Below are positions 1-56,236 of a stretch of 64,000 nucleotides of DNA, piece after piece (within the stretch, counting starts at the first letter, position 1; each line of letters begins with the position of its first letter). The position numbers and the translations under genes were made by a program. The stretch comes from Allolobophora icterica (taxonomy: Eukaryota > Annelida > Clitellata > Crassiclitellata > Lumbricidae): NCBI GenBank assembly GCA_963556255.1, contig OY744604.1, positions 71,970,390 to 72,034,389 on the forward strand. The letters are read 5' to 3'. The notes below the pieces were generated by a model. The model was not told the DNA's origin and made no database searches. It saw only the letters and a list, made by a program, of their open reading frames with translations.

Positions 1-2650
1 GCTAAAAATAATATTTCTTTTTTTTAATAATTTCGAAAAATGTCTTAAATTCTTGACACCAGACTAATATTTTATGTGAAGGAAAGGCCTGTTGTATTCC
101 TACTTAATGCTGGCATCATCTACTTTTAGGAAATTGCCATTTTATAAGCACCAGAGGAATATTTCAGGTCTTTGTGATTAAATATGATTACACAAAAAGG
201 TCGGAATGTAATGAAAAAAGAGGCATTTTCACTTTATAAATTCTGCAAAAACATTAACTTATTATTACAAATATAGTGGATTTCTTTCAAATTATTTAAA
301 TTTAACTATGTACATGACTAAAAAAACACTTACAACCAATTTTGGGGAAAAAAATTTTTTGTTTTTCGGAGACGAAATTTGTAACATTTCGGATAATGAC
401 CCTTATAAGCCTTTCCCCGCACTCCAAAAATTGCGACAAGATGGTCTAATAAATTAGAATTAAAAAATGCTGGTTGGAGCGAATTGTAATTATAATTGCA
501 ATCTGACATTTATAAAGCGCCACTTCAAGAATAAACTCATCGGTGGCGCACAGACCCGAACCGGTGAAATCACTGTCAAATGATGAAGACTGTAGGCGCT
601 TGCGAAACTGTGGAAGGGCCAAACTGAGGATGATCCTGGCACATAGTGATTGTGATAGTCACATGGCAAAAGAGCTGCTACCAGCATAAGCTGAGAATAA
701 ACTGCAGTTGTTTGTTTGCTGCGTCAGCTTCGCAATGCTACAGTGTTTGTCAAGTCATAACTTGTCCTAGAGCTATAGATCTTTTGAAAATAAAACACAA
801 GAGTTTTTCAATAAGTATTCTTCATTGTTCGATTTTTTTTACACAGCTAAGGATTTTACACGCACATCCACTGAAATTTAGCATGTATACCGGTTGTAGC
901 TAGGCCTATGTAAGAAATCCTGTAAGAATTTTTCAACAACAACCCCAGTCCAAATTTGACAATTCAAACCCTGCCTCTCCTACATCGAAATGAGGCCTTG
1001 TATAGGCCTACTTAAAACTGCTGACAACCATAAAGGCATAATAACACATTGCGTAGGCCTTTGCGCTTTCGGTTGCTCAGTAAGCTAGTAATCTGTTAAC
1101 TACTGAAACGAGAGAAGATGCTGGAAAGTATTAGGCCCTAAGTGAAACGAGGTCGAAGTCTAACAGAAAGAGAAACAAGTTACCAGATCTTAAATAGTCA
1201 ATGTGTACATCGCCAGAGCAAACGTTGAATGTATTCAAATTGCTGATTGCTAAGACAGTGTGCATCAACTACCAGGCGTCTGTTTAGGATCCTGTCGGTG
1301 AGTTTTTCCAATACTCGGACGACTTTCTGTCACGCATTCCAAATAATTCTTTTTGCCTCCATACAATCGGTTTGGCTGTTTGTTGCAGAGTAATTTTGAT
1401 TTGAAGTTTGTAAAAAAAACGCTGTTTAATTATGTTGTTAATCTTGAGCTTTTCTTGACGTTTCATTAAAAGTTAGAATTCAGAGCTGATTTATTGAAGC
1501 AAAATGTTTTTAACATAGGCCTACATGACATTAAGTTTCTGAGTGCAGTGCAACAGAATTCGGATGAAAACTTTAAAATTTACCCTAAATTCGACCCATA
1601 TTTTCAAGCTATAATTAGTAAATTATGCCAATATATGAATTAAGCAAGACTAGAACTGCTTTAATTGATGTTTCTGAAAGATATGTATTGTTTTCAGAGG
1701 ATATCTGGCTCATAATAAATAGATGGGGTAATAATATTTCGTCGATTTTCCAGCACATATCGGAGAAGTCGCTGTTGATTCGTGTTGACGTGGGAAGTCA
1801 TATCGAAGCTGTCGGTCGCATACTCTGCATTAGTTACTTAACTTGCCGTGCTTCATATGATTCGTTGAAATAGTACGTGGTGTATTATCTTGTCTGCTCT
1901 GTTTGTTTAAAATGTTTCACCGGTTAAGATCTCGAGCATTAGCATATCAAAACTTCCAATGAGTCGTAAAGTGGATAAAACACTGAATCTCGCATTTCTG
2001 CGTTACATTAGGTTGATTATTACGGTTGCTAGAAGGATATCTAAAGATATAAGACACTGGAATGATGGCAAGGCAACAGTGCTATACCCATGGGAATAAT
2101 TACGCAACACTGGGGCCACTTTACTGAACTTTATCTCACTAAGTCTCACGAACAGCCCGTCCGAAAGATATGGCGTGCGCTACAGAAATACTCAGTTACA
2201 CGCACATACCTACAAAATACAAACGTACGTACTGTAAGTACACAGACATAATTATATTTGCACATACATACACACATTACGGTCTGATCTGCTGGATTTT
2301 AACCTGATATCGATTGATGGTTGACACTTTGTGCATTAGACATCGACGCAACAGAAGTGACTAATTATCGCCTACATGATTGAATACATGCAAACATACA
2401 TGTGTACATAAATGCAAATATACTTAAATTTGGTCTAAATACAAACATACATAAACGTACACATACGTCTATGTTTTAATTTCGTTTTAATTTCTGTTAT
2501 AGTACACAACTTAATCAACTTCTGTGTAGATAACTGATTAGCAGCAATGCACATAACCGAAGATACATCCGTGTTTTCGATGGATTCATCCACAGATTCC
2601 GGTAACTTCCTCGTTGTTTTTCTCTGTTAGGTTGTACGCATGTAGGCTTA
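1..2650. other. AT-rich stretch without a recognisable gene
   Basis: I see no coding exon, RNA gene or delimitable transposon here; the short open frames show no protein-like composition. The stretch has TAGGCCTA octamers at 901, 1003 and 1516. Around 2310-2365 is a motif (gattgatg..ttgtgcattagac..gcaacagaagt) that recurs in diverged form near 31046-31096 and 62530-62585, so part of the stretch is an old dispersed repeat. Confidence 0.5.
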
Positions 2651-3015
2651 TCAATATAAATAAAGCAAAGACTCTGTCTGTCTGTCCCTCTGTCACGGCG
2701 ATCTTTGACCGGGATGCATTTCTACACCTTTCGATCTTTTCACTCCAAACCTTCACTACTGTCTCGGGGTGGGCATTACACACCCAGTGTGAGGCTTCGC
2801 GTTCCCCGTTTTCACCGCTTCCATGGTGAAAACGGGCGAAAACCTCTCAAAAACCTCCACTTCTTAAAAATTCGAGTCGACCTATTTTCATTCGCCAGAT
2901 GGCGCCACCCGAGAAGATTTCACCGAAAATTCTGTCACCGGCACGCATTGGTGGTGGTGGTGGTGGTGGTGGTGGTGGCTTATAACCCCGGGCAACGCCG
3001 GGTAAACCAGCTAGT
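2651..3015 (+). mobile_element. Non-autonomous Helitron-like element
   Basis: The element begins with TC after a host A (TCAATATAAATAAAGC, followed by a CTGTCTGTCTGTCC run). It ends with a GC-rich hairpin (cccgggcaacgccggg) and CTAGT, the classical Helitron 3' end of a short stem plus CTRRT. It has no terminal inverted repeats and no TSD, as expected. A (TGG)n run at 2949-2978 lies near the 3' end. One detail does not fit: the base after CTAGT is A, where Helitrons normally have T. Confidence 0.6.
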
Positions 3016-3531
3016 ATATAATATATGACAACATTTAATATAGCGCTTTAGTGGTTCCTTGATCTCTCTTTACCTGTTTTCCGTAAGCCCTTGAAAACCA
3101 TGTTGTTCGGTTTTGGTTTTGTGTTGTGAGCTCGGAAGCACCATTGGGGATCTTTCTCGAAGAGTCGTTGCATAATTCTGTTATTACAATTAGCCTACAG
3201 TAAAACATTAAGTAGGTTTTTATAGTAACTGTCCTTGTCGTGCCCCATGAGACCTTTCGAACCTGTTAAAACTTCATTAAACCATTAAATTTTTGTCTTA
3301 CGTAACGAATAATATCACAGTTTCTTCACCAAAGCCAAAGTCAGAGCGTCAAGATTTCTGCAAATTGTGCGGCATGTGACTTTTAAGCTATAAAACTAAA
3401 AAATATATCGGAAGAGTAATATTCCTAACACAGGGTAATGACATTCTATGAACATTTCAAGGTGTCGTTTGATTTATAAATTAATTTACGTTACATAAAT
3501 TTACAATTGACGATGGATAATTGATTTCTAG
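3016..3531. other. Intron or intergenic DNA upstream of the membrane-protein exon
   Basis: No gene or delimitable repeat is visible. It ends in a splice acceptor (gatttctag) directly before the coding exon at 3532, so its right part is intron. Confidence 0.45.
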
Positions 3532-3711
3532 GTACTTGGACTTTGGAGGCTTCGAATGATCTTACCTTTGATCATACAATGACGACGTATCATGATGTGA
3601 GCCCAGCAATGCCGCTTTGGATGCCCGGCATCATTTTTGGAGGACTCTTGCTCGCTGCCTGCGTTGGGGTCGCTTGTCTCATCATTTTCGTTATAAAGAA
3701 ACGTCGAAAAT
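3532..3711 (+). CDS. Transmembrane exon of a single-pass membrane protein (penultimate exon)
   Basis: This internal exon is bounded by an acceptor (ttgatttctag) and a donor (gtaatt). It encodes a short juxtamembrane stretch (GTWTLEASNDLTFDH..), then one hydrophobic helix (about PLWMPGIIFGGLLLAACVGV, continuing ACLIIFVI) and a stop-transfer cluster KKRRK. It ends in phase 1 and joins in frame to the exon at 4989, giving the codon for S after KKRRK. Orientation by the positive-inside rule puts the C-terminal tail in the cytoplasm, so the ectodomain would be encoded by exons further left; I could not identify them. The family is not recognised. The receptor role is inference from topology and the tail motifs. 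Confidence 0.65.
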
Positions 3712-4149
3712 GTAATTTAATTTGTCAGTTAGTGACTTGTCATCATCACCATCATCATCAGTCGTCGTCACCATCATCGTCAATGACAACAACAACAATA
3801 ACAACAGCAACAATAACGCCATGAAAACGCCACAGCCAGTGTCATCAAACGTCATTAAAATTGCGAAGTAAAGCTTATTTATCATTTGTTTATATGCTCT
3901 GTAACAGTGCCTAAAACACTCAGAAATGTCAACTGCACACTCTCCTTCAAATTGTCAAACTGCACTTGAACTGGTAATTAAAATTTCAGGAATTGGAATG
4001 GAATCATATCTAGTAAGTAAGTAAGTATTTTCTTGATCGAAAAGCACTAGCAAACGCACATCGCTGTAGGCTATATGGTAAACGTATTACAGTCAAATTA
4101 TCAAACAATGTAACCAATTAATTATATAAAAAGAGAAATTACTGCGAAT

Positions 4150-4760
4150 TAAGTTCGACATAGGGACGATACGAGATGAGAGGAGTAAGGTAGCCAGATC
4201 TTGGGAGAGCATAGTGGCTGAGAACCCATATTTCTCATTTAGCTCGACACCCAGTATACTAAGAGTGTACACTGTGCACCCTGGCGATACCATCTAGAAT
4301 GGGAGGTGGGGAGTACCAATGGTTCCCCGAGGGCGCGTGAATATTATTTTACTGGACATGCTCGTATCAAGGCTTAAGTTGCACCTGTGTTCCCAGGCAG
4401 TAAAGTGCTGAGTTCCATCTCAGTGCTCGAGATGCCTGATGCGGGGACTGCAAGGTAACAATCATCGGCATATTTAAGAATGCGGTTACTTTTGTTGATT
4501 GGTTTTAAACCCGAGGTGGTAACTACAAAATCAATGGGGCCCAAACCGGATCCCTCAATGATGCTTGCATTGAATTGTGCAAGGGAAGATATTTCTCCCC
4601 GGAACTCGGCGCAGTGACTTCGATTATGGAGGGGGTTCAAGATCCAAGTAAAGATTTGATCAGTGATTGGGAATGAGACAAGCTGTTCGGCCAGATACGA
4701 GTGTCTGACCGAGTCAAATGCTTTGGAAAATCTAAGGAAACCAAGCGAACATAGGGTTCA
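4150..4760 (-). pseudogene. Decayed non-LTR retrotransposon reverse transcriptase fragment
   Basis: On the minus strand the translation reads FSKAFDSVRHS, then ..LNPLHNRSHC.., a G.GLGP-like stretch and KYADDCYLAVPAS, which is the RT catalytic box (YADD). A shifted piece (TLSILGVELNEKYGFS) matches the region after the palm domain. The pieces are in different frames and interrupted, so it is dead. It lies antisense in the intron between the two membrane-protein exons and looks like a Jockey/CR1-group LINE. Confidence 0.7.
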
Positions 4761-4988
4761 TTACCTAAGGAACTAAGGATTTGAGTAGATAATAGCCATC
4801 AAAGCAGCAGCCGATGTACCAGTAGGCCTAAAGTTAATCTCTCAAAAATTCTTACTATTCACTGCACACTCAAGACAAGTCAACTTGGCCTACACATTTT
4901 GTGCCAGAAAACACACTATTTTATGCCCTGGTCTGTAATAAAGCATAGTTCTTACCTACTGTCAAGACGCATATTTTTTATTTTGAAG

Positions 4989-5665
4989 CGAAACAACCAA
5001 CACGAGGAGAAGAAGGGGCTGGCAATGTTCCGGAAGCCACGCCAACTGCAGCCACTGAAGCCGATCTCCATGTGTATGAAGATATCATAGAACCCGGTTA
5101 CTGTGAGGTGATAACAACGCTGCAGAGGTTTTCGCAGCCTCTCCTCTCGGATTCGGGTGATTACGAGGAGATAGCCGGCGGTACACTGACCGCTAAAGTC
5201 AAATCACTGATGCGAAAGCGAATTCTTGCAGTAGATCAACCTCAATCTTCGAATAACACAGCATCTGCTCATCGTGCGGCTAAACATCTTTCAGATCAAT
5301 CAGATGATTCTTTAATCACAACGCACACAGAGCCCACTCAATCGTCCAGCAAAGAAAATTCTTCTCAAGATATTCAAGTCAAATACACGAACCCTGTCGA
5401 TTCATCTACATCCACAACTGTGCCATACTGCATAGTCGAATTGGCGTTTGCTGGACAACAGCGTCGCAAAGTTTCACCGAATAAGCCGCTATATCACAAC
5501 GAAAAACCCAAGGCAGACAACGAAGCACCACACTCAGACTACACGAAACTCGGTCAAAGACCAGTGAGGAGACCCCGGATCTACACCAGGTTAACTGAAA
5601 TCTTCCGTCCAAGTTCAAATAGACGAAATTTTGGGAAATCTGGTGCTGCGAAGGATGATGTTTAG
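4989..5665 (+). CDS. Cytoplasmic tail exon of a single-pass membrane protein, tyrosine-rich (terminal exon)
   Basis: The terminal exon has its acceptor at ttttgaag, phase matching the exon at 3532-3711, and a stop at 5663-5665. It encodes about 225 residues of hydrophilic tail. Tyrosine motifs seen: VYEDI (Tyr codon 5075), GYCEV (5099), DYEEI (5162), DYTKL (5540) and IYTRL (5582). The YEEI core is the known preferred ligand of Src-family SH2 domains. S-D-Y-T-K-L fits the loose ITIM pattern (S/I/V/L-x-Y-x-x-L/I/V), and YxxL can also be an endocytic signal. The remainder is rich in S, T, N, Q and basic residues with no fold I recognise. A signalling or endocytic receptor tail is the best inference. 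The intron between the exons carries an antisense LINE fragment. Confidence 0.7.
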
Positions 5666-5717
5666 GCGTTATCATCGTCCCAAAACTTTATTTCAGCCCC
5701 AAATGGAAAGATTCTGG

Positions 5718-5985
5718 AAAACATAGCTACTCGGAGATCAGTCAGTTAGATAAGCTGCCTGCCCATAGGAATTGGCTCGAACTATGATGTGCTAAAGATG
5801 GTTACAATATAAATGGATGTATAGGCCTATGCTGTGTATTGACCAGACAATGGAAAACGTGAGCTACGAGATAGTCAGTTAGATAAGCTGCCCGCACAAT
5901 GTATAGGGATTGGCTCGAACTAGGATATGCAAAGAGGGTCACAGTGAAATATAGGCCTATGCTGTGTTTAGACCACGCAGTGCGG
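5718..5985. repeat. Direct tandem duplication, about 130 bp x 2
   Basis: Two adjacent units share gatagtcagttagataagctgc (with a one-base difference), the attggctcgaacta motif and TATAGGCCTATGCTGTGT. They lie just behind the membrane-protein stop codon, probably in its 3' untranslated region. Both units carry TAGGCCTA (5822 and 5952). Confidence 0.8.
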
Positions 5986-6738
5986 AATACCACTGGACGT
6001 TTGAAACGGCTGTATTTTTCAGGATGGATTAGTAGCTACTTCTTTATATGAAATGTACAGTAATATTTAAAGCTAATTTAATCTGAAATAGACGATAGTT
6101 GATCTCAACTAACCTAGACTAAATTGCAAATGCAATGTAACGCATCATAGTCTATTCAGATCTGACAGGCTCCTTCCTATCTAACAGCTTCTCAAACACC
6201 ATTACAATGTTGCACAGTGTTTCATGCGATGATCCGCTAAAACTTTTCAAGTCAACATCCAGGCAAGTCAAAGATTTTAATTGTATTTAATTCATTCAGG
6301 TAATTTTATATCACCTCTTCAAGGGAACTACTCAGAGGTGCTCCCGACTCCAGCACGGCCGAACAGGACATTTTTTCAGTTATTTGTAGTAATTAGGGCA
6401 ATTTCTATTGCATCGTCAGTAGCAAGTCACACGTACGTCTAGACTCTAGAATATGAGTAAGGTGGATAAACGTGCTGAAACAGATCTATAAGAAGTTATG
6501 TCGAGATAGAAAAGTCAACAAAGAGCCGATAGAGTAGACTGACTGTGGCGTGCATTCCAGAAGCACATAGGCCTAAGCGTGGCTTTAAGGCAGTGATGCA
6601 CAACCTTTATCGACCAAGGGCCACTAAATGATTTCTGAATCCCTTCAGGGGTGGGGGGCAAACAAGTGTGACGATCGACTCAGCTTGTGTCAGATGATTG
6701 CATGCTAAAATTTACGAAGGCGACATGAGCAGTAGAAC
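5986..6738. other. Stretch without recognisable gene
   Basis: No coding exon or delimitable element seen. A TAGGCCTA octamer is at 6568. Confidence 0.4.
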
Positions 6739-7150
6739 CAGAGGCGGCGCTACCATGGGTCGCGGTAGGTCATTAAACCTGCCTATTTTGCTCTTGACCT
6801 GCCTTATGAGCTGCCTATTTTGCTCTTGACCTGCCTTATGATCTGCCTATTTTACTCTTGACAGGACCCTGGTTGACTGTTTCTGTAATGTTGTGCGTCT
6901 TATTAGCATGCATGTTCATGATGTTCTGAGTAGCTATATAAAAAAAATCAGTACTTCCAAATCTATAAATATTATACTAAAGTCAATTCAATAATACTTT
7001 TCTTCGTTTTATATATCTAAGTTATGGTGCTTATGTTGAAGTTCTACTTAATTGATGCGTCAAACTCAAACATTAATTTCTTCGACCTGCTGAATAACTC
7101 CTATGACCTGGACGCGACCTGCTGAAATTGTATAGCTGGCGCCGCCACTG
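6739..7150. mobile_element. hAT-like MITE with internal minisatellite
   Basis: Termini are cagaggcggcgctacc on the left and the complement of cagtggcggcgccagct on the right. They are flanked by an 8-bp TSD with one mismatch (agtagaac at 6731-6738, agtagagc at 7151-7158). Inside, a ~37-bp unit (ctgcctattttgctcttgac..) is repeated about 2.5 times at 6778-6862. There is no coding capacity. Confidence 0.75.
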
Positions 7151-7256
7151 AGTAGAGCACATATAAAAGTAAATCTAAATAGTTATAGAGTTACAGCACT
7201 TCTACATTACTACAATAATGGTAGTTTTTTCCAATTACCACAGTGCACGAGTTACT

Positions 7257-7665
7257 CTAGACTAGCTTAAGGTCAGTGCCCACTCTTAAAGTCACTTTTC
7301 CTGTTGGACATCGCCGGCCACATGACAACACGTGATAGGCTCGTGCAAAAATAAAGGTCTTTAAGCATTTAAGTGAAGCTGGTGAAAACGTCCCAGGGAT
7401 CCTGCTCCGGATCTCAGATGGGAGTTCATTCCAAAGTGAAGGGCCAGCCGAAGCAAAGGCCCGATGTTGAGTTAACGAGGTTCGCGACCGAGGTACGAAC
7501 AAGTCCAATCGGTCAGTAGAACGAAGGGGGCGAGAGGAGCGTGAAGAGATCGGTTTGCTCATCAGTTCAGAAAGGTATATAGGCGCCAAGCCTAACTGGG
7601 ATCCAGTGACTAGAAGAAGGACCTTGAATCTTAAGATGGATCTTGAAGGTAGTTCATTTTCCCGT
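7257..7665 (-). pseudogene. 3' end of an L2/CR1-like LINE (RT C-terminus)
   Basis: The minus-strand frame reads RFKVLLL..SQLGLAPIYLSEL.., then RPLRSTDRLDLFVPR and AFASAGPSLWNELP. This is the conserved C-terminal region of Jockey/CR1/L2-type LINE proteins. It is 5' truncated. It belongs to the same family as the copy at 15062-15590. Confidence 0.75.
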
Positions 7666-7689
7666 ATCAGAAGAAAATAAGTGTGGCTG

Positions 7690-8800
7690 ACTGCATAGAG
7701 ACGTTAAGGCAGATATGTATTGTTTTGTGAGAGTTATATCCACAGCTACGCCAGGCAGAGTGTAATAATTAAAATTTTATGGATTATGGTTGAACACCAT
7801 TCTGCTCGAACGTGGTCTTTTATAGTTAGGTTAAGAGCTCCTTTAGTGAGTTTTCTATAAAGACGCTATATAAATGACCACTTACAATTACATGCATTAT
7901 ATTAGTCTATGCAGAAGACTACTTTCTGACATTGGTAATGGTGTATGGCTATATCAGCTACAATAAAATTTAATGTGCTTCATTAAGAGGAAATTAGTCT
8001 GTAGTCACAGTGGCCGGATTTGTTGCAGTCTTTACGAGAGGTCTGGTTTGCTCCTGATAAGCGTAGTAGGAGAGATGATTCAAGTGAATGGCCTGCATTA
8101 ATTATAATTCATTTGCGTCAGGACACTGAACTGGGTAATATAAGCTTAGCGGTGTAGCCAGACTAGCTTGTATTATATCTCGTTCGATCAGCGGTTGACA
8201 TGAGTAGTTATAGAGCTCTTCATTATCAAAGTCCAGCACTTGAACCGCCGCTGAATGAAAATCCTAGAGAGCACAGATAACCAGCAGCACATTCCAGCGT
8301 ATATGGGCCTACGCATGCTTGAAATCTCCTATTTGCTTATTATCTCCGGTAGACTTGACATCGGATCTTACACAAAGCCAAGTAAGCCAAGTTCTTCCAT
8401 ATTCCGTTGAGTGTGACTTTAAGGTAAGTCGTTCAACCTTCGAAGATGCACTGGTTAAGTTTCAGCTGACAGAATCTGTCGTCTCCGGAGATTCATCTAA
8501 ACAGTAACAGGAATAATTTGAAATGTTTCTTAGCCACGAACCGCGCAATATCGAGCACTCACCAAGTGCTGCTCAATAAATGCCTACTGTGCGCAAACAT
8601 TCAACCCACGGTCTCTACAGGCCTATAAATAGAGTATTGAATATGCATAAAATTGTCTATACTAGATGACTGTATATGTAGACGATTTGCACACAAAAGG
8701 CTAATCATTATAGCGTCTACATTTACTGTATAGCCGGCCAGCGGGCTGGTGTATACTGCACAGGCGTATATAAATATGCAGACACGTCAAGTGTTGTTGA
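7690..8800. other. Stretch without a confident gene
   Basis: A short open frame near 8319-8507 contains a good-looking donor (tttaag/gtaagt near 8421), but no partner exon or protein family supports it. Otherwise nothing is seen. Confidence 0.35.
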
Positions 8801-8810
8801 GCATTATATT

Positions 8811-8814
8811 TATA

Positions 8815-8873
<59 letters not shown>
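8811..8873. repeat. (TA)n microsatellite
   Basis: About 60 bp of nearly pure TA dinucleotide repeat. Confidence 0.95.
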
Positions 8874-8877
<4 letters not shown>

Positions 8878-9079
8878 TTACTTCTGCAGTCATATATTCT
8901 GGATAAATAATCCGAAATCAAAGCAATATGCATTATAGACATTAAGTTACGTATGTTTGTATGTATGTATTGTAATTACAATCGCAAATTGATACCCAGA
9001 AAGCACACTTTATGACCAGAAAAACTAAGAATCTACCTTGAAACACCCAGAAATATTTATTCTGGCAGGAAAAAGTTCT

Positions 9080-9345
9080 TTCTTTTTGCAAATCTTTTTG
9101 CTGCTTTTTGTTCTTTCTATTATCGTTCTTGTTCCTGCTTCCCCTGTTCTTTCTCTTTTCCTTCTTCTTCCTGCTTTCAGTGTACTGTCTTTTTCGTTCC
9201 TGTTCTTGCTCTCCATGTTCTTCCTCTTTTCTTCTTGTTTCTGCTTCCCTGTTCTTTCTTTTATCGTTTTTTGTTCCTGGTTTCCCTGTTCTTTCATTGC
9301 TCGTTCTTATTCCTGCTTTCCCTGTCATGGAGGCCTTCTTGTTTA
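9080..9345. repeat. Pyrimidine-rich degenerate minisatellite
   Basis: The motif (ttccctgttctttct..ttgttcctg) recurs with a period of roughly 35-40 bp. It makes long open frames on both strands (Glu/Arg/Lys-rich on minus, Phe/Leu/Ser-rich on plus). The amino-acid composition simply mirrors the repeat, so I do not call a gene. Confidence 0.75.
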
Positions 9346-9575
9346 GAAGAATCCTCACTCCTGTTTTGTCCTCTGGAATAAAGAGCTGTTGCGCCATTGA
9401 ACCCCAATCTTCCACTCTCCGTCTATCTCATCTCACTTATCCCAGAGTATAAATAACTAAACACTACGTCGACTTCCGGCCGCTGCCTGTTGACTTGTTT
9501 TCTGGTCACTTGATTATGACAATATAAAGGCGACAGTGGATGGGGCTAACCCATTTTCAGTCGGTCACACATTCT

Positions 9576-9878
9576 CAGAGGCGCCGCCAGGCTTAAAAAA
9601 TTGGACGCACACACCCTCCCGTTTCCTCCCATGGACACCCGTCCCCTGTCTGCCACTCGCAGTCACCTACACTGAAAATCACTCAGAGTGACTCATAAAA
9701 GTACAGTAGAGCACATGCATTATGATATCATATGATATTATTTATACTTACTATATGGTAAACCAAAATTACACAGTGAAATTGTCAAAAATATCGATGC
9801 GATGCCTAATCTTTGTGTGGATTTGATTTGGTGGGTGGACGCACGTGCGTCCAGTGCGTCACGCTGGCGGCGCCCCTG
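9576..9878. mobile_element. hAT-like MITE, 303 bp
   Basis: Termini are cagaggcgccgccaggc and the complement of caggggcgccgccagc. The 8-bp TSD cacattct is perfect at 9568-9575 and 9879-9886. The right half contains the palindrome gacgcacgtgcgtc. Confidence 0.88.
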
Positions 9879-9886
9879 CACATTCT

Positions 9887-10972
9887 GACTGCTGCAGCGG
9901 CCGGGAGTCCACGTACTGTTTAGTTATTTGTACTGTGGCTTAAGTGATAATCTACATCCTATATGTAACAACTCATCTCTCTCAACACCTAGGCTTACGC
10001 TAAACCTTAAGTTCCAGTTACATTCCATGTACGGTACCGACTTGGTTGAAGGAATCTGTTGTCTCCGAATCCCGACTTCCGAAGACCGGCTTTCGCCGAT
10101 GATCTTTTAGGAGTTTAGTGATCCACGATCCGTCGAAAGATTATTCAACATCCCTGCTCTTCCATCTTGTCTCAACATACACTTTGACGAATTAATTTGT
10201 TCCGTTGTTTCTGTTGATAGAGGTTTTACTCGGGGGATTGCAAGCCACCGAGGAACCCTCTTTTTTTACCCTGGAGCATCTGAGGTAGTCTTTGGCGGAG
10301 ATTTTAAAGTAAATCAACAATAATATTAATGATAACGATGAGTTAATAACCAGTTAAATTCAAATTTCACCTCTGTGAGTCAATTAAGTCATTTTATTTT
10401 CAATACGTTTACTCATGAGCTCCATTGCCCATGGCACGATATACAGTCTCTTTCAAAACAAACTCTCAACTGGACTGAAATAATGTATTCCCTTGCCTTT
10501 TCAATCCTATTCACAAACTCATGTCATTATTGTAACATATAGTTTTGAAGCAATAAATAATTTGACAATAAAGTAATAAAATCCACCTGCTCAAAATTAT
10601 TATTAACCTTAGAACAAAATTTAATGTGACTGTAGTCTGTATCTCTCAAAGAACAAGAAGATTATTTCAACGGAGGATAAAAATTCTCCCTCGGAAACTT
10701 TTTTATAGTTAGAATGGAGTATCCCGGGGCGAATATATTCAAAACCGATCTGGGAGAATCTGTTCCGAAGTAGATTCACTAGGAAGACTTTGAAGGATGG
10801 ATACTGTGTTTGGACACCGGTTTCACTGGACGAATTACGGCATTGGCCTAAAGTTTATTAATTGGGTGTCCAATTAGACCTGTTTAACTTTTATATGGGC
10901 CCTACGCACTTTACGTTTTATGTTATTTAATTATGCCAGTGCTAACTATAATTAGATCTGTTTGCGATGTAG
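9887..10972. other. Upstream region of the three-exon gene
   Basis: No recognisable exon or delimited repeat. The 5' untranslated exon and promoter of the downstream gene may lie here, but no element can be assigned. Confidence 0.35.
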
Positions 10973-45448: not shown

Positions 45449-45581
<133 letters not shown>

Positions 45582-45966
45582 CGAACAAGGCACATTATAT
45601 TACCGGCATTTCTTTGCGCTGGAGCCTAGAGAATCTGGCTCATGCACAACTAGGTCGACCAGAGTCAAATTCTTCCGACAAATCAGGGTGACCTAGTATA
45701 GACCAGACTGGCAGACGCCACACTTACATGTATACGTCTGCAGTGGCCCGGCATATCATGTAAAGCAGCTGAGACCTAGGCGGGAAAAACATGAAATTTT
45801 TGTTAAACTTAGTCCACCCTCGTTACATGATTGTGACGCCACTGCATGGACGCTGCATGGACGGCGTCCAGGCCGTGCTGGCCTATTAAGTGGCAGGACG
45901 GCGTCCAGCCTTGAAAAGAAGTGCCTGGACGCCGTCCATGACCGTCCATTCACACTTTAAGCCCTG

Positions 45967-46250
45967 GCCATATACCTAAAGCTGACCTTCGATCTGGACT
46001 TCTTATGGTTGATTTGCTGAAAACCCCTTCAACTTTAAATTGCTATAAGTGGCAGTTAAATATAAGATTTCGATTATGTATTTGACGTAGGGCCTATTCC
46101 TCGAAAAGATACTATAAAACAGAAGAAGTTAATTTAAATTACCTCGTGTCTTCACTTCACATCCTGACTTTAAAGTTGGCACTGCTTTCAGGTTGGCCAT
46201 GTATCGAATGTTGATCTTGGATCTGGACTTGTGATTTGCTGAAAACCCCC
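45967..46250. repeat. ~230-bp tandem array, continuation beyond the 8.1-kb insertion
   Basis: The array resumes with gccatatacctaaagctgac and covers one more unit (gaatt..aattacctcgtgtc, catcctgactttaaagttgg). It then breaks off near 46250 into a G-rich repeat fragment. Confidence 0.85.
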
Positions 46251-47345
46251 TTCAGCGTAGTCAACTTCGTGATGGGGAGGGGCACGTCCTGTGTAAATAT
46301 CAAATGGGGCCATGACCGGATTGCCCCCCTCTTGGATACACCCCTCGGCATCAGTCATCTCAACCTTCTGTAAATTCAGAAATCTAGGGACCGATTGACA
46401 TTTAATTGGCATGAGTGATTAGGTTGAATTCATTCAGATATAAAATGAGTGCCCTTCTCGAACAATGTATGTGGGTAGATCATGTGAAAGAGAGAAATAG
46501 AGTATCCCAGGACTCGGAGACTATGTTTCGGAACAAAATCCTCCCATTTGAAATGGAATCTTTCCATCTACGATACAAATCGCTCACACTTAAATCGCCC
46601 CCATTTCAGTTGCCATTTAATTTCAAATAGGATCCACATAAGATCATGATTTACACTTAATTACATACGTTGATTCCTATGTCTTTTTTAGTTCGATTGG
46701 ATATTTTAAGCAAAATGCTTAATAACATTAATTACATAATTTAATAACACGATTTAAATACCGAGCGAAGAGGTTAACATGTGTAATTTAATAAAGGTCT
46801 TGCAACCGAAAACTCTCGTTCACCAAAAACAAGTTAGTTCTCTCTGACTAAGAAGCAAACAGCGCAGTTTAAAAAAAGGCATTCAACGAAAGTGAATACA
46901 TGGTATAAGCAGAGGCAGAGAGACAGAAAGAGAAAGATGACGAAAGACAGGAGCATTATGTAATTCGCATTTGTTCAGATATCCTTGAGATTGCTGCAAT
47001 ATTAGCTACATGCCTGATCAGAAATTTATCTGCATGACGGTCACATCGATTTACAAGACTAGACTATTATAATTAGCACGATAATAGATTTACGCAAGCC
47101 ACTCTGCTGCGTCAAAAGTTTCGCCTTTCCTGTCACTAAAACCTTACAACTATGCAAAACACACTTCCTAAATTCCATTCCTAGCTGAAGGTGCAAGAAT
47201 GATTTTCCTATAAAACTCTGCCGACTTTCGTTTATTTTCAGACTCCAGCCTTTTTGCATTTGAAATTAGCCTACTTTCCTTCCAACCACGCGTAGCTGGG
47301 AGTTCTTCCTACCATGCCTTCACCTCGTTTCCAGCCATAGCTGTC
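46251..47345. other. Stretch without recognisable gene
   Basis: A short repeat-like piece (gtagtcaacttcgtgatgggg..) lies at its left edge. No exon was identified. Confidence 0.4.
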
Positions 47346-48480
47346 TAACAATCTGTAACCGTGTTCAGCAATAGTTACAGCAGTATTATCTATTTATAGG
47401 CGTAAACGATAATGGTTGCTACATCCTTTGTGGGTTGACCAAGTTGGCTTCAGTAAATAATTAACCTACCGCCTCGTTTATGTTCAAATCCATTTTACTC
47501 AGGCAAGGAAATGCTAAACTATGCTTTGATCTCAGCCGATCACAAAAATAAAGCAAAGACACACCTATTTATGAAATAATATAAAGCCAATGGACCAGTG
47601 TATGCAAGATAATTACCATAACATTCCATGACCAATATGGGTTTCCAACGGCTGTTCCAAAAAACAACATATGCTGTTGTAAAAAGTTCTATGTAAAAAT
47701 TTCTAAACTATTATAACACTGTACGTGTTATGCATCGGAAACACATGACGAATGATTTTGACTTTTCGGAAGTCGAGAGGACTTTGATATATTATACAAA
47801 ACTCTCACAAATCTGAACAATCAAGAGTAAGACTAGGTTTCGTAGACATCTTTGGTAGGCCTACTGCGTCCCTGCGTGAACTCTCACAAAATCCGAACAA
47901 TCAAAACCAGGTTTGGAAGGTCTACTACACGAGATTGGTCTGGAATTGCTAAGTAATTGGTGAAAATATCACAAATAATAAAAATTACATATAGTAAAGG
48001 ATCTACGTCTCTTCACAGTTATTTTTGAAAATTGCGAGTCAAATTACACCGTGACTGGCCAGAGCCAAATCGCTGTATCGGGGAGTCGTGCACGTTCAAG
48101 AGTATAATAAAATATATGCCTCAAAGGTTGTCATATAATTTATGAAGTAGGCTCTAAAACTGGTTAAGGCGAATAATAAGCTATAAAGCAACTGCTGTCG
48201 AAATGTAGGCCATCCTGGTTTTAGGCCCCTATGCCTGTCCTTCACTGGTAGCCTACATTCCCAGATATTTGCAACTTCATTCGAGAGCCTTGTTGGGATC
48301 CATCTGAATATAACCTACAGTAGCCTGAGGTTAAAGTTTAAGAAAAAATAAAATTGAAACCTTCCCTTTAAAACAAAAGAAATTTGTATGCAAAACTTTC
48401 TGCAGAATGTTTACAACGTAGGCTACACTCATTATTCTCGTTTAGTGGAGAGAGCAGTGCTGTGCAAAGTAACCCTTTGC

Positions 48481-48759
48481 CAGTGTTTAATCTAATCTAG
48501 TCCCCCTCGTCTGGGAGGGGAAACCAGGTTTCTGGGGGGAGCAAACAATTGACACAAAATTTTGTCTTCCATCTTTAAAAAGTTTAAGACTTTTCTCAAA
48601 TTTTTCCATTTTTCATCTTCGAAAAAAGTTGATGACCTTTTTTTTTAGTCCTTCACCCGATTTGTAACTTTTTCCTCTGTCAAAAAATGTTGATGACCTT
48701 TTTTTTAGGAATCCATCTCTCTGGGGGGGGGGAACCAAAGACGTCTAGATTACTCACTG
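48481..48759. mobile_element. MITE of the CAGTGTTTAATCTAG family, copy 3
   Basis: Ends cagtgtttaatctaatctag and gtctagattactcactg. The flanks share ccctttg with imperfect ends. The other copy of the duplication has no insert at this place (about 31180). Confidence 0.8.
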
Positions 48760-48833
48760 CCCTTTGTAATTTGTCAGAAACCTGGCTTCAAATGATAAAT
48801 TATTTGCTCATTTGCTGAACTTACTGGCGTCAA

Positions 48834-48962
48834 CCTGTCCAAAATATTGGGAGGGGGCATTTGGTTATTCATTCTACACTTGTTGCATTGGGTGTACAGT
48901 CCATGTCAATTATTTGGGGGGGGCACGTGACCCAGCTGCCCTTACAGAGTCTACGCCTATGG
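48834..48962. mobile_element. Small hAT-like element related to 36273-36959
   Basis: The left end actggcgtcaacctgtcc and right end gagtctacgcctatgg match the ends of the element at 36273. No TSD is recognisable. It is absent at the paralogous position near 31230. Confidence 0.6.
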
Positions 48963-49490
48963 TAGCCTGAACAACTTTCATAGTTTCGGTCATAATTTAC
49001 TTGGTTACTCAGGATTGCCACGTTTTCAGTCTAGGCCTACAGCATTGGCTGAATATTCACTCCTCAGAATTTTAAGCAACGTTTGAAATTGTATTTCTTG
49101 TGTATAAAATAAAATAATTGAGCTAAACAATGTTTGCTGGCACAGCTGTACAGTTTCAGCAAATGGAACCCACAGCTAAAGACTGTTGATGTGGGCCCTA
49201 TAAAAATTCATGTTCCAAAGTTTCTACACATTATACTCTAGCAGTTTAAGTATACGACTTTGCAACTTTGTTGGTTCGTTATTAAAAGCAAATTGAGCAC
49301 TATCCTAAATATTCTACATTTAGATTTGCCTGAGCGTGATTTCTTATACCGTTGCAATTAATTTTTCTCTTTTCAGTTCAAGTTACATCGTTGTAAACCC
49401 AGTAGTCGTGCTATTAATGTACGTGATGTTTCTCCGATGTAGTCTACCCGCGAAAACTAAAATGCTTTCAAATGTTGTTACAACAATGAT

Positions 49491-51039
49491 ATGGTATGTA
49501 GTCTGTAAAGTTTGTGGTAGAATGGTGGTCAGCTTGCGGGATATTCAAGCGTCAGGGCAGACAGATGTTTCAAGATTTATGCTCAACTTGTGCCCCCTAG
49601 CGAACCATCAAATGAGTACATTGGCCACAAACACTGTTTGGGACGATCAGACGACAAAGGAGATAACTGATCAATGACAGTGGGCATCCGCCCTCATGTG
49701 CCAAGGCTAAGAAAATGAAGTCGTTGTCACTTTAATTCTCAAGACTGTTTTTCGGATATAGATCAACGACTGGTCTACTTCTTCTAAGTCATCATGTTGA
49801 CGTTCTTGAATAAGCAGTTTAATAGCTTGAAAACCGGATTCAAGCAGTACTGAGCACCCCTTTTCTTCATTGCTTAAGTAAATACGGGCGGTGATTTTAT
49901 GGGATCAGGAACTATGCTGCAAGTGTACTTTTGACGACATTTTACATGACTTCTATCGTCATACGCGCCCATGCTCTTCAGAATGTGCCAGTTTAAGTGG
50001 TTTTCTTACATCAAAAGACTCATTGCAACCTTGTTGACATACAGAACAATCCATAGCCAATCGTGGCACGTTAAAGTTAAGAGTAGCGCAATTACTCATT
50101 CAAAGCCGGCTTACATAAAGTAAAATATCAATCATGCACGACAGCAAAATAGCAACAACCGTTCTCTGTCAACCCCAAACCAGATTTCAGCTTACGTCAT
50201 TAAAATATATATATTTGCTTGTATTAAACAAGAATGTTTACATTGCATCTACATATCGATGCATATGGACGCGTCAGTTTGCTAAGGAAAATACATAAAA
50301 TTTCAATAAAAATAGGAAAATACATAAAATTTCAATAAAAATAGGAAAATACATAAAATTTCAATAAAAATATAGACGCGTCAGTTTGCTAAGGGAAATA
50401 CATAAAATTCCAATAAAAATAGCCCGCCAGGATTGCCATGCATTCATATTCCATAGGCCTATTCTCTGTGCTACGTTCAATGACCTCAACAAACAAATTT
50501 TAAGAACTTGTTTTTCGAAAAAGTAGGACAAAGTCTTGTTGAAAACAAGGCCAATCAGTTTTATAATTTTAACCTCGCGAGTTCTTAGGCAACCAAAGTA
50601 AACGAAGTTGCGAAAACCAGCTTATTTTGATGGCAGTTCAATCAAAACGTAATCGACACACCTTCTGACTTGACGAAACGCTCGTGAATGAGCTGGTACC
50701 TGCGCTTAATCTTAGAGTAGCGTTTTAGAAATTTGGAGTTTACAGTTATTATTACGATTACAATAGGCAGGTAAAGGTCAGGTTCAAGGTTGAAATTGGT
50801 AGACAGTCAATGTTGACAGGATCAGACAATTTCACAGCAGTCCCTCAAGTTGTGTTAGATAGCAGCTTATTCACGGGTGCCTCGTCATTATCGTCAAGTC
50901 ACAGATATTCTCCTGGGATTCTGTGTACAGAAGATAATACGGTTGCCAGGTCATCCGCGAAAGAGAGAGACAGAAAGAGATAGAGAGAAAAGAAGAGAGA
51001 AAGAGAAAGAAAGGAATGGAGTGAGAGAGAAAGAGAAAC
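49491..51039. other. Stretch without recognisable gene, with a minisatellite
   Basis: A frame at 49336-49677 lacks recognisable domains and overlaps the duplicated segment, so I do not call it. A 29-bp unit (ggaaaatacataaaatttca..) repeats about four times at 50284-50424, part of it with a larger gacgcgtcagtttgctaag unit. Confidence 0.45.
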
Positions 51040-51048
51040 GTGAAGGAG

Positions 51049-51508
51049 CAGTGTTTAATCTAGTCCCCCTCTTCTGAGGGTGGAAACAAGGTTTGTCGGG
51101 GGGGGAGGACCAACAAGGCCGACCTTTTTTGGAAATTTCATCCGTGTTCCAACGTCCAAGGATCTTTGGGGAATTTTATGTTGAAAAAAAGTAGATTTCA
51201 TCTTGAAAAAACTTGATGACTTTTTTTCTTTTTTTAGTCATTCGTCCCACTTTTTTTACCTTTTCTGGGAAACTGAAAACTTTAACGACCTAGTAATTCA
51301 TCTCTCATTCTCAATTCACCTCTTATTCTGTAATTTTATTCTTATATCACTCGTTTCCTTGTCTCTGGGGAGTCCAACATGCATCCTGAGGCGGGGATGG
51401 GGAATTCCCCACAAAAACGGTATCTACATTAAAATATTGCAGGCCTCTGCTGGGGGAAACACAAATCCTGGGGGGAATTCCCCCAAAAGGTGCCTAGATT
51501 AAACACTG
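51049..51508. mobile_element. MITE of the CAGTGTTTAATCTAG family, copy 4 (460 bp)
   Basis: Ends cagtgtttaatctag and cctagattaaacactg with a perfect 9-bp TSD gtgaaggag at 51040-51048 and 51509-51517. The interior has the family's G-run and gaattcatctctc motifs. Confidence 0.93.
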
Positions 51509-51774
51509 GTGAAGGAGTGAAAGAGAGAAAGAGACAGAAGCAGACAGGAGAGCTGTTACAGCGGATTACGGTCGGAGAATGAGGACCGTATAAACGAGAT
51601 GTCTATGGTCTGATATTCAAAATGCCATATAAATACGAAAACCGCATATCAAATTATTATACGAAATGGTCACAAAGAAGAATATATCGCTGTTTTATAA
51701 TCCATCAAGCCGGCCATTACCAGCAAAGGCTAGTTGTGTCTCTCAGCTAAGCAAATATAATAATCTCATCACCC

Positions 51775-51898
51775 TGTTTCTTAGTGTCCTCAAAACCCGC
51801 ATTGTTCGACCGTGGTTGGGCTGGGAGTGCTCCTGAGTAGGCAATCTTGAAGGGACGCTATATAAAACTGCTTTAATAATAGTAATAATAACAACAAA
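51775..51898 (+). pseudogene. LINE 3' end inserted in the piggyBac remnant
   Basis: It reads ..FLSVLKTRIVRPWLGWECS-stop, then gacgctatataaaactg and a (taataa)n tail. It corresponds to the LKTALFRRAGVGSASE end of the LINE at 21926-23070. Confidence 0.7.
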
Positions 51899-52575
51899 TA
51901 CTATAAGGGCACTGATGTCCAACATGTTGCAGAATATTGCTATAGGCCAACACCTTGTCATTATTTTGTACTGTACATATGGAGCACCTGATCTGTAGTG
52001 TCAACACTCCCTTTGGATGCATTACAGTCCAAGATCATTAGGGTTTTTTCTCAGGGTGGTTGCTATCAATCTCTGCTGAGCAGAACAACAACTTTACCTT
52101 TCTTTGGACAGTAGGACACAAGTCTTGCATCATCTCGTAAAACAAAGATGGAAGATAGTGCTTCATGACCTTTTGAGTTTATGAACTCTGAAGGAAGTTC
52201 CTTGCTGTTTTTCCGGATGGTGCTGAGAAGGGTCAGCATTTTAGTGCTACACCAATCAATTATATTAGTTTCTCCTTGTAAAAATACTCATAAACTAAAT
52301 TTTATTTCATTAAAAATATATTTTATTATATTTACATTAGTCACAATCGTGCAGTTTACATTGGGGTCAAAAACGACCCCATTGGTACTCAGTGTATAAA
52401 TGCAATACCTGCACCATCCGGTGACAAAAATTCAAAAGAAAACAGGGGATTCTGTACACAACGGGAATATCTATTAAGTCATAAAATTTCGTTTAGATAT
52501 CGTATATGGGGGCTGAGCAGCACTAATGGAAACAACCTCTGGGGTCCTTTTCGACCCCCAGTGATAGTCAGAGGG
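51893..52575 (-). pseudogene. piggyBac element remnant with transposase C-terminal part
   Basis: Minus strand, with frame breaks: TLLSTIRKNSKELPSEF, RLVSYCPKKGKVVVLLS, LDCNASKGSVDTTDQVLHMY and RCWPIAIFCNMLDISAL. These are conserved piggyBac transposase segments. The element's outer end is agtgatagtcagaggg directly followed by TTAA (52576-52579), the piggyBac target. Inverted hairpins built on ggggtc..gacccc occur at 52362-52381 and 52537-52559. The N-terminal transposase and the other end are missing. Confidence 0.82.
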
Positions 52576-52827
52576 TTAAGATGGCGATAAGTCCACGTCA
52601 AAGGCTTTCTATCCTGAGTGCCGGCTATAAAAAAGAGGAAGCGAACACCGTTTGGAGTGCGGACATGGAACACTTGGGTTTATCTCGCTTTCATGGCACT
52701 TTGCGAGGTCATAATCGTAATCGTAAACTCAGAAAATTTCTAAAGCCTCACTTGAAAGCTAGACCGGGGCACCAGCTTATTTACGAGCGCTGCGTCGAGT
52801 GAGGTGAGGTACACACAACAGTGAGCA

Positions 52828-53279
52828 TACATACATACATACATACATACATACATACATACATACATACATACATACATACATACATGCATACATACAT
52901 ACATACATACATACATACATACATACATACATACATACATACATACATACATACATACATACATACATACATACATACATACAATCATACATAGATACAT
53001 ACATACATACATACATACATACATACATACATACATACATACATACATACATACATACATACATACATACATACATACATACATGCATACATACATACAT
53101 ACATACATACATACATACATACATACATACATACATACATACATACATACATACATACATACAATCATACATACATACATACATACATACATACATACAT
53201 ACATACATACATACATACATACATACATACATACATACATACATACATACATACATACATACATACATACATACATACA

Positions 53280-53313
<34 letters not shown>

Positions 53314-53333
53314 CATACATACATACATGCATA
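52828..53333. repeat. (CATA)n microsatellite, about 500 bp
   Basis: Long CATA repeat with regularly spaced variants (tgcat, aatcat at about 52982 and 53162). The variant pattern suggests an internal ~180-bp higher-order duplication. The open frames are artefacts. Confidence 0.97.
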
Positions 53334-53793
53334 CAAGTAGTAAGCCCTTTGACAGCCGGCACTTACTGAATGACATGTAGCCAAGCAGACAATAAGGTGC
53401 AGAGCAATAATGATAATTTTCTGAGCTTTTGTTTAGCTAGCTGAACTCGTTATGCGCGGTGAAAGGCACAGTAGTAGCTGCTAACTCCTTAGTGCAGTTG
53501 TTGGTGTCCTGCTTGAGATGTGACAATAGACCCTAGTCAACAATCTGACAAATTAATGTGACCAGGGTGCTGATGCTTGCGATGGCGAGAAGTTTATTGC
53601 TATTTTCTTTGTTATTGTGACCTCTTGACATGGAATTCAGAACAGCTTGGCTTAAGCAAAAGAAACAGTGACATCCTAATCGAAGTTTAGGCAATGATAG
53701 GGAAGCAGCGAGAGACAGCGAGAGAGAGATAGAAGGAGAGAGAGACAGACAGACAGACAGAGACAGACAGACAGACAGAGAGGAGAGGGAGAT

Positions 53794-54018
<225 letters not shown>

Positions 54019-54149
54019 AAAAGAAAAATGACATGACATTGTTTTAAAGCTCTATTTTCCTATGGCCATCCAACATTTCAACGCAATTTCAAACCAACTT
54101 TCTGAGAGCTTCCACTCACGAAGACTAACCACTAAGAATCGTCTATTCT

Positions 54150-54340
54150 CATAAGTTTCCATGTATTCGATCAATAAGGACCATCTATTCTCATATACCT
54201 TTTCATCTTTTCTATCAACAAGAACCATCTATTCTCATACGTTTTCATCTTTTCTATCAACAAGAACCATCTATTCTCATACGTTTTATCTTTTCTATCA
54301 ACAAGAACCATCTATTCTCATACGTTTTCATCTTTTAGAT
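54150..54340. repeat. ~42-bp minisatellite, about 4 copies
   Basis: The unit (tctatcaacaagaaccatct, then attctcatacgttttcat) is repeated; the small frame on it is not a gene. Confidence 0.9.
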
Positions 54341-56236
54341 CAATTCCGTTTCGGAACAGAACAAAGATAGACATAAATTGCGTGAGTAGTATATCGATAG
54401 CCATAACTGCGATTATAAATACATTAATACCGACATGACAAGCGTCTTATAACATCCTCTTGACGATGCATCTCACGAATGCCACTAGAAGAAGTATCCG
54501 CTGGCAATAATAATACCAACAACAACAGCAATGTTAAATTGCCAGAGACATTTTAAGACCGTAGACTTAGTTAAACATTCTCTGTTAACAATACCAATAG
54601 CCTATGATACATACATTTTGGTTAGAGTTAACACGTTCATTTTCAAGCAGGCGAAGAAAGCGGTCGATTCGCTTGAGGAGACGTCCCAATAAACGCCTTT
54701 AAAAAACTTTATGACCTCATACAACCGATCACTGTCAAGTGATATTCGTGCAGTTAATGGCTGCGATGCCTATTAACAGGACTTCAAGATGTCTTATATG
54801 TCCAATCAAGTGTTCCGATGAAAGTAGGCCAGTGAACATTGAGCCGAAGCCACGGATCACGACAGTGCGGAATATAAATGCCGAGAACCGGGGAGGGATT
54901 GTACTCATTATGTTCAGGTGACAACAGATGCGCCGCTTGCAGGAAGGCAACACGAGAGGAATAGATTGTCATGTAATTTGATTTTAACAGAGACCGAGTA
55001 GCATAACGTCACTCGACGTCTTCAACTGAGTAGGCCTAACGCTCGTTCTGTTAGCTTACGTTTTGAAGATCGTTTAAGCATTAGAAATGTCGAACCATAC
55101 CCAGGTTTGTACTCTGCTGCAATCTGTTTAATTGGATATTCATTTGTGGAAACAGTTGCTCGGTAATCCAGCGGTTATTCTGCTGGACTATCAGCCTACT
55201 GGTCGGGGTTCAAATCCCTTGTAGGGGAGAAATATATTTCGACTTTCTGTTTCATTTTCGTAGATGATTAGGCGTTAGGGTAGAGGACATACCTCCCGTC
55301 CTCAAACACCAGGGCCAAGAAAATGGAGCCGTTTACAGTTCATAGCCATGCTTGTTCTCGGGCTTGACTTTTCTTTCTTTTTCTGTTTTCGCTTTTTCTT
55401 CATCGTCTTCTTCTTCATTTGTATGCAAGTATTTTCCTCTTTTGACGATCATGCAAAATATTCTTGAATAGTAACTGGAATGATTCTATTTAATTAATTG
55501 CCACGTATTATTTATAATTTGTCACACATGATATTACTCACAATAAAACAGATATGAGTTCGTCTCGCATTTACTATATACAGTGCGATTAAACGAGCAA
55601 GCAGAGGCGAGAAGATTCGTGACTGCAGAGAAGTCTGCAATAAGTGCGCATATTGCCATCACTACACACTTATCCGCGTCTTATCTTTCTGCTCTCTTGC
55701 TTTGATTGAAGTTTCAACTTTTGCAAACTTGTCTATTATTATTAGCAGTAATATTGTTTTTATTTTTTACCATCGGCATTAATTAATGATCCCTCGGGTT
55801 TTCGCCAACATCCTTTAACGTTTCTTCCACCAGTATCTTGCTTTTTTTAAATTCTTTCCTTCCACTGAAAATTCAAACTGCACCGCAAAAAACAACTCAA
55901 GAAATATTCTCAAATTATCTTAACAGCTACGCATCCATAACTATAATCGGGGTATATGAGACATTTTTTAAATACTATAAATAGGCCTGAAGGTTAAACT
56001 ATATGCATGCAGTTGTCTTTTTGTCTCATCACTTTAAATACATTTCTTCCCCTAACTTTAATAATTTTTTAGTTCTCTGTAGTTTCCAATTCACCTCAAA
56101 TGTAGGCCCTGTAATTTTCACCCCATAATTGACTTACGTTATTGACATAACAGAAGGCTAATATTCCCACATCGTTGAATAACAGGTTATTGACCACTTC
56201 GGAAAGTTGCATTACAGACGTTTTGTTCCATTGTAG
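54341..56236. other. Upstream region of the ATPase gene
   Basis: No coding exon was identified. A tRNA-like SINE lies at 55150-55375. The promoter or untranslated first exon of the ATPase gene should lie in or left of this stretch, but I cannot place it. Confidence 0.4.
55150..55375 (+). mobile_element. tRNA-derived SINE-like element
   Basis: A-box-like tcggtaatccagcgg and B box ggttcaaatcc about 45 bp apart, followed by a body (ggccaagaaaatgga..) that is partly shared with 49690-49735. Borders are approximate. Confidence 0.5.

Follow-up and report, generated by a model that had tools for sequence, protein, structure and literature searches.

A graded series of words between TA dinucleotides

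The window analysed in this study, 64,000 nucleotides of contig OY744604.1 from the annelid Allolobophora icterica, holds 25 exact copies of the palindromic octamer TAGGCCTA, in which GGCC stands between two TA dinucleotides. Together with 20 copies of the 7-mers TAGGCTA and TAGCCTA and seven of the 9-mers TAGGCCCTA and TAGGGCCTA they form a series of 52 sites, discussed here as candidate excision footprints (scars) of a transposon that targets TA. Compared to a single TA, the three lengths correspond to gains of five (+5), six (+6) or seven (+7) bases. The sites are given below; no strand is assigned to them, and they were identified by exact match unless another basis is named.

901..908: TAGGCCTA, scar candidate
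1003..1010: TAGGCCTA, scar candidate
1516..1523: TAGGCCTA, scar candidate
4823..4830: TAGGCCTA, scar candidate
5822..5829: TAGGCCTA, common to two diverged local copies, partner 5952 (match and flank comparison)
5952..5959: TAGGCCTA, common to two diverged local copies, partner 5822 (match and flank comparison)
6568..6575: TAGGCCTA, scar candidate
11374..11381: TAGGCCTA, scar candidate
12174..12181: TAGGCCTA, scar candidate
13933..13940: TAGGCCTA, scar candidate
20158..20165: TAGGCCTA, scar candidate
23911..23918: TAGGCCTA in a dead reverse-transcriptase copy of a long interspersed nuclear element (LINE), two codons added (paralogue and protein alignment)
24945..24952: TAGGCCTA, scar candidate
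26752..26759: TAGGCCTA, scar candidate
27077..27084: TAGGCCTA, scar candidate
31554..31561: TAGGCCTA, scar candidate
33444..33451: TAGGCCTA, breaking a (TAG)n array at the array edge (partly by eye)
34440..34447: TAGGCCTA, scar candidate
38214..38221: TAGGCCTA, scar candidate
43576..43583: TAGGCCTA within a single unit of the 65-bp tandem array, TA in other units (paralogue alignment)
43951..43958: TAGGCCTA, TA in paralogue 43990-44127 (paralogue alignment)
47856..47863: TAGGCCTA, scar candidate
49032..49039: TAGGCCTA, scar candidate
50454..50461: TAGGCCTA, scar candidate
55031..55038: TAGGCCTA, scar candidate
1132..1140: TAGGCCCTA, +7 form
16115..16123: TAGGCCCTA, +7 form
25511..25519: TAGGCCCTA, +7 form, TA in paralogue 47346-47399 (paralogue alignment)
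33226..33234: TAGGCCCTA, +7 form
45200..45208: TAGGCCCTA, +7 form
56598..56606: TAGGCCCTA, +7 form
46088..46096: TAGGGCCTA, +7 form carried by a single copy of a ~220-bp repeat, TG in the best paralogue (paralogue alignment)
25679..25685: TAGCCTA, +5 form, TA in paralogue 47466-47559 (paralogue alignment)
48419..48425: TAGGCTA, +5 form, TA in paralogue 31097-31167 (paralogue alignment)
3191..62816: 18 further +5 words (TAGGCTA/TAGCCTA), at 3191, 4067, 11626, 12224, 17235, 20759, 25543, 30649, 33109, 34296, 34606, 34620, 34659, 40595, 47267, 48249, 54598 and 62810

The original prediction, made from the letters of the sequence, had put the number of octamers at 25 or more, with about one expected in 64 kb. 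The exact count is 25, and 24 of the 25 coordinates were right, the site listed at 24944 starting at 24945. This number exceeds the Markov expectation from window composition (0.63, 0.61 and 1.15 at orders 1, 2 and 3) as well as the counts in 100 dinucleotide-preserving shuffles (mean 0.78, maximum 4). At orders 4 to 6 the expectation climbs to 4.2, 13.4 and 21, because the sub-words largely come from TAGGCCTA itself. The 25 positions are consistent with a uniform distribution (Kolmogorov-Smirnov p = 0.34). An all-versus-all comparison of the flanks of the 52 sites returned nine rows, corresponding to seven site pairs; six of these are neighbours less than about 105 bases apart with overlapping flanks, which leaves 5822 and 5952 (77% alike) as the sole genuine copy pair. 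Apart from this pair the flanks are unrelated, and the motif of a single repeat family, which had been named as the outcome that would overturn the prediction, was not what we found. A search of the window against Rfam returned nothing at gathering thresholds. In viral contigs a triple-TAGGCCTA pattern was detected at 11 loci, mainly local clusters or tandem repeats; the dispersed pattern was absent among the matches listed.

All words of the form TA-X-TA, with fillers X of 1 to 6 nt, were scored against an order-2 expectation and listed if they occurred at least four times on the two strands. The leading filler was GGC/GCC at 3 nt (20 sites vs. 4.9), GGCC at 4 nt (25 sites; 50 on both strands vs. 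1.2) and GGCCC/GGGCC at 5 nt (7 sites vs. 0.26). This is a palindromic or nearly palindromic filler with length variants, as expected of Tc1/mariner-type footprints. The shuffles summed to 6.4 for the 7-mers and 0.19 for the 9-mers. The +5 words thereby exceed chance by about 14-15 sites; individually they are unsure, since chance alone would produce about six of the 20. Taken alone, TAGCCTA (13, shuffle maximum 9) and TAGGCCCTA (6, shuffle maximum 1) are both exceptional. With fillers of 1, 2 or 6 nt the lead passes to words outside the GGCC series, and TAGCTA was seen 26 times vs. 19.6 expected. Second among the 4-nt fillers, microsatellite words aside, is that of TACATGTA (8 sites; 16 on both strands vs. 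3.0). A single word had been proposed as the scar, but the +5, +6 and +7 gains form a spectrum.

It is unlikely that the 7- and 9-mers are decayed copies of the octamer. One-base indels are normally less frequent than substitutions, and for this reason the two forms are better taken as primary products: with decay, substitutions should exceed one-base indels, which they do not. The 24 one-substitution neighbours of TAGGCCTA occur 50 times on both strands, where order 2 predicts 33.4 and order 3 predicts 41.5; the excess is no more than 4-8 sites. Enriched one-base deletions were found only within GG or CC (words containing octamer halves aside) and enriched one-base insertions only as GGGCC/GGCCC (flank-extended octamers aside). 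Some decay of TAGGCCTA exists nevertheless, as TAGGCTTA and its complement TAAGCCTA, the commonest core variants, are in excess (6 vs. 1.6 per strand pair). If the substitution excess reflects decay, the mean divergence would be roughly 2-4% per site. The words TAGGACCTA and TAGGTCCTA, with the fillers GGACC and GGTCC, do not occur in the window, and the third base of the putative element end would therefore be G or C.

The base directly outside TA is biased, too (pooled chi-square p = 5.3e-4). G was found there at 3 of 50 octamer ends and 5 of 54 ends of 7- and 9-mers, compared to 18% of all TA sites, and A at 23 of 104 ends vs. 32.4 expected, likewise below the level of all TA sites. Avoidance of CTAG does not account for the G deficit, this word being seen 171 times in the window vs. 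155 expected. The same flank bias across the length classes suits a single process.

Empty sites in paralogous sequences

For each of the 52 sites the flanks were aligned to the rest of the window with the site intact and with the site collapsed to TA. A paralogue across the site was found in nine cases, and in seven of them (23911, 25511, 25679, 43576, 43951, 46088 and 48419) the collapsed form aligned better, indicating insertion at TA with TA on both sides. The remaining two are 5822 and 5952, the duplicated pair in which both copies carry TAGGCCTA. In five of the seven gains the paralogue has TA. Among 1245 control words of the form TA-N(3-5)-TA, 191 have a paralogue and 27 aligned better when collapsed (Fisher p = 6.5e-5 for 7/9 vs. 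27/191); the control words overlap each other, and TACATGTA at 23565 is counted among the 27. The original prediction had described pairs of related sequences with TA in one copy and a longer word in the other, and had suggested paralogue alignment as a check; the seven sites bear this out, gains of GGCCTA at TA being among them. For this window, the evidence that the insertions occurred at TA is strong. In the clearest case, the 65-bp array, one unit reads GACATTG-TAGGCCTA-ATGG, three others read GACATTG/GACACTG-TA-ATGG and a fourth reads GACATTG-TA-GTGA.

A dead reverse-transcriptase copy at about 23.5-24.0 kb, kin to the open reading frame (ORF) 21839-23008, holds both TACATGTA (23565) and TAGGCCTA (23911). 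The protein check drew on 120 listed homologues of 1092 found. At 23911, 53 of the 120 listed homologues span the site as it is, none of the 53 ungapped; after collapse to TA 67 span it, 51 of them ungapped. At 23565 all 120 listed homologues span the site, none ungapped as it is and all 120 ungapped after collapse. As the alignments become ungapped after collapse, each of the two scars has added two codons. Within the window TACATGTA occurs 8 times vs. 1.2-1.5 expected, and the contexts examined sit outside CATA microsatellites. One of the eight has a paralogue, and that one (23565) is a gain at TA.

14798, 15731, 19687, 21874, 23565, 24866, 33091 and 45725: TACATGTA, exact match
23565..23572: TACATGTA, +6 gain, comparison case in the dead reverse-transcriptase copy (paralogue and protein alignment)

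Towards the end of the window, 42-nt inverted repeats with 98% complementarity (arms 58209-58250 and 61419-61460) delimit an element at 58215-61454 with ends CAGGGTGCGG and TA on both sides. A LINE reverse-transcriptase ORF (58304-60676) is located inside these repeats; apparently this is a LINE nested in a TA-flanked DNA transposon. The motifs SPDLKPL and LDYHVWG in this element are ones we take to be Tc1/mariner-like; searches of Pfam and PDB did not confirm them. The TACATGTA scars would be in keeping with the CA ends of the element. For the reverse transcriptase at 58382, a search of viral_contigs and genome_contigs returned no relatives.

Proposed origin and comparison with known elements

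We consider it likely that excision of a TA-targeting element with ends starting with GG left both TAGGCCTA and the related 7- and 9-mers behind as footprints. The original prediction had offered this interpretation for the octamer, and it is supported by the excess over the Markov expectation, the gains seen against paralogues and the lack of a common repeat family. A cut-and-paste DNA transposon with inverted ends starting with 5'-GGC or 5'-GGG would target and duplicate TA; it would have inserted at many TA sites and later left. Staggered cuts would leave 2-3 nt of each element end attached to the neighbouring DNA; sealing by end joining would produce TA + G(1-3)C(1-3) + TA, a gain of 6 (commonest), 5 or 7 bases. 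In one version of this scheme, a 3-nt 3' overhang GGC would yield TAGGCCTA by pairing over GC, and TAGGCTA/TAGCCTA by pairing across all three bases, one of them mismatched. Alternatively, a 2-nt GG overhang might yield TAGGCCTA when both ends are kept; the usual Tc1-type +4 product would then be TAGGTA/TACCTA, which is not enriched here. We lean slightly towards the 3-nt GGC version. Frequent excision together with a low copy number would let scars pile up while copies stay few.

The donor is probably Tc1/mariner-like; membership is not established, since a donor was looked for in the window and none was found. The sites resemble those of Tc1 from C. elegans in the TA target, the TA flanking the scar and the few end bases in between. 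Tc1 ends start with CA, the ends proposed here with GG. Sleeping Beauty footprints are TACAGTA/TACTGTA, words that are not notably enriched in the window (14 vs. 10.4).

According to excerpts of two papers, it is established that Tc1/mariner elements are cut in a staggered manner, 2-3 nt within their ends, and leave scars from nonhomologous end joining (PMC2170065, PMC7827188). ISY100 transposase cuts at the element 3' ends and 2 nt inside the 5' ends (PMC2170065); Sleeping Beauty and mariner cut 3 nt inside the 5' ends, and the 3-nt 3' overhangs are end-joined (PMC7827188). A 3-nt overhang would thus give a 3-nt filler in Sleeping Beauty, and the +5 form TAG(G/C)CTA fits a GGC overhang in the same way, but in the principal form here the filler is 4 nt long. 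Stowaway miniature inverted-repeat transposable elements in the wheat tribe left a varied 1-4 bp of their ends between TA duplications at one site, according to the excerpt of PMC1925063. Their scar length varies as it does here; in contrast, their ends are of the CTCC type, and the evidence for them comes from individual loci with element-bearing alleles rather than from an over-represented word. ISL2EU elements (PHIS superfamily) share ends usually starting with GG, but duplicate AT inside AATT (excerpt of PMC4482050); with TA duplicated here, we rejected them as donor. Sailor (DD82E), a member of the IS630-Tc1-mariner group common among invertebrates, has ends GT or CC and requires a TATA duplication (excerpt of PMC8533490), whereas the bases outside TA are mixed in our sites, and it was rejected, too.

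Several findings weigh against this origin. All counts and tests rest on a single 64-kb window. The usual somatic scar of Tc1 in the worm is +4 (78%, as cited in the excerpt of PMC13148408), so that the +6-type form credited to Tc1 in the original prediction is not the usual one; here, +6 leads and is accompanied by +5 and +7, and TAGGTA/TACCTA, the +4 form from GG ends, showed no enrichment (13 vs. 20-23 expected). Neither TAGGCTA (7, shuffle maximum 10) nor TAGGGCCTA (1, shuffle maximum 1) is exceptional by itself, only the strand-summed classes being so, and the bias of the second flank base is non-significant (p = 0.13). In two of the seven gains, 23911 and 46088, the paralogue has TG rather than TA. 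Two indel surveys gave a weaker picture than the site-centred comparison. An unfocused gap survey yielded 82 distinct insertions of 4-9 nt relative to a paralogue, but only 2 fit the form of a TA...TA duplication, TAGGCCTA at 43576 being one of the two; with repeats so abundant in the window, ordinary indels are therefore more numerous than scars. This survey uses the gap placement of the aligner and misses cases found by the site-centred comparison.

Furthermore, the predicted TA-flanked element with GG...CC termini did not emerge above shuffles in the window: 7 pairs of TAGG...CCTA ends at most 4 kb apart matched at 14 or more of 20 positions (best 15), compared to 0-10 (best 14-17) in ten shuffles. 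TA-flanked 16-base inverted repeats within 1.5 kb gave five rows vs. 0 in each of five shuffles; none of the five has ends starting with GG, and several are AT-rich or tandem. Among solved or annotated elements we found none combining a TA target with GG ends. Literature searches on the word and on over-represented excision footprints, which barely covered subscription literature, showed no title on the subject among those listed.

Alternative explanations

The window without a donor would also fit an insertion directed to TA without any transposon, either by GG added template-free or telomerase-like on both sides of a TA-ended break, or by insertion of the 6-base palindrome AGGCCT. Placing AGGCCT between T and A yields a sequence identical to that obtained by adding GGCCTA behind TA, so that the two are indistinguishable by sequence; telomere-type repeats TTAGG, as we presume, contain TAGG. 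Nevertheless we regard this explanation as rather unlikely. Telomerase addition should produce a preference for T in front of TAGG and for A behind CCTA, but A lies below expectation at these ends, and a telomerase origin was rejected on this ground. A bias beside TA is usual for transposases, and the second scar type TACATGTA behaves alike, which fits elements with differing ends better than a single added sequence. Programmed removal of germline-limited, TA-flanked elements with GG ends from the soma would explain many scars with zero donors in 64 kb, the donors being absent by design. Ciliates are known to eliminate TA-flanked sequences related to Tc1 (excerpts of PMC3464196 and PMC3408717), and an animal counterpart of these internal eliminated sequences, leaving 5-7 extra bases, would be at hand if this were true. 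It is very unlikely: the two copies at 5822 and 5952, 77% alike, carry scars that must have been inherited, and heritable excision of the ordinary kind accounts for the same data.

A conserved functional motif, i.e. a protein-binding site or origin spread or kept by selection, would be palindromic, abundant and mostly free of mutation, as TAGGCCTA is. We hold it to be extremely unlikely, as the gains are insertions at TA with exact TA duplication, occur inside dead reverse-transcriptase and tandem-array sequence, and include 7- and 9-base forms that would ruin the spacing of a binding site. An effect of one repeat family, composition, microsatellites or the assembly is barely conceivable, even though microsatellites and tandem arrays abound in the window and 5822/5952 share the word through duplication. 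The counts compared to shuffles (maximum 4) and the flank comparison, with one related pair among 52 contexts, overlapping flanks aside, contradict both chance or composition and a one-family origin, and the flanks are collinear with paralogues across sites, unlike those of a ligation artefact.

Further features of the window

At 62176-62289, 38 residues match Na,K-ATPase alpha, identifying the window as animal DNA. Two stretches with CARD domains are located on the minus strand at 20856-21227 and 29817-30182, about 9 kb apart (Pfam E 1.2e-6 and 3.1e-5, above the cut-off); these are perhaps exons of duplicated genes. The long ORF 12377-13255 has one homologue (P0121, 71% identical) in a search of 5.8 billion proteins with an E cut-off of 0.001, and is a lineage-restricted gene. 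A diverged repeat of ~214-241 bp is arranged in tandem at 35219-37887 and found again 8 kb off at 45965-46243. The regions 39148-39660 and 42650-43167, about 3.5 kb apart, share stretches of 202 and 300 nt at 100% identity and therefore reflect a recent duplication. A dispersed, unclassified family starting with AGCAGTGTTTAATCTAGTCCCCCTC is present in both orientations at 13384, 38703, 39020, 48484, 51047 and 63735.

Implications

About 45 scars in the window lie above chance (52 seen, 7.4 expected by shuffles), i.e. 0.7 per kb. At this density a 1-Gb genome would contain about 700,000 scars, a value extrapolated from one window; the earlier figure of thousands of insertions and excisions was an extrapolation as well. 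If the excision origin holds genome-wide, a single octamer count would read past transposon excision without a surviving element, and it would become possible to measure how active an unknown element once was, which repair pathway was chosen and which targets it prefers. It would also be a warning that an over-represented palindrome can be something other than a regulatory motif. The proposed end, 5'-GGC or GGG, may serve as a handle for locating this element.

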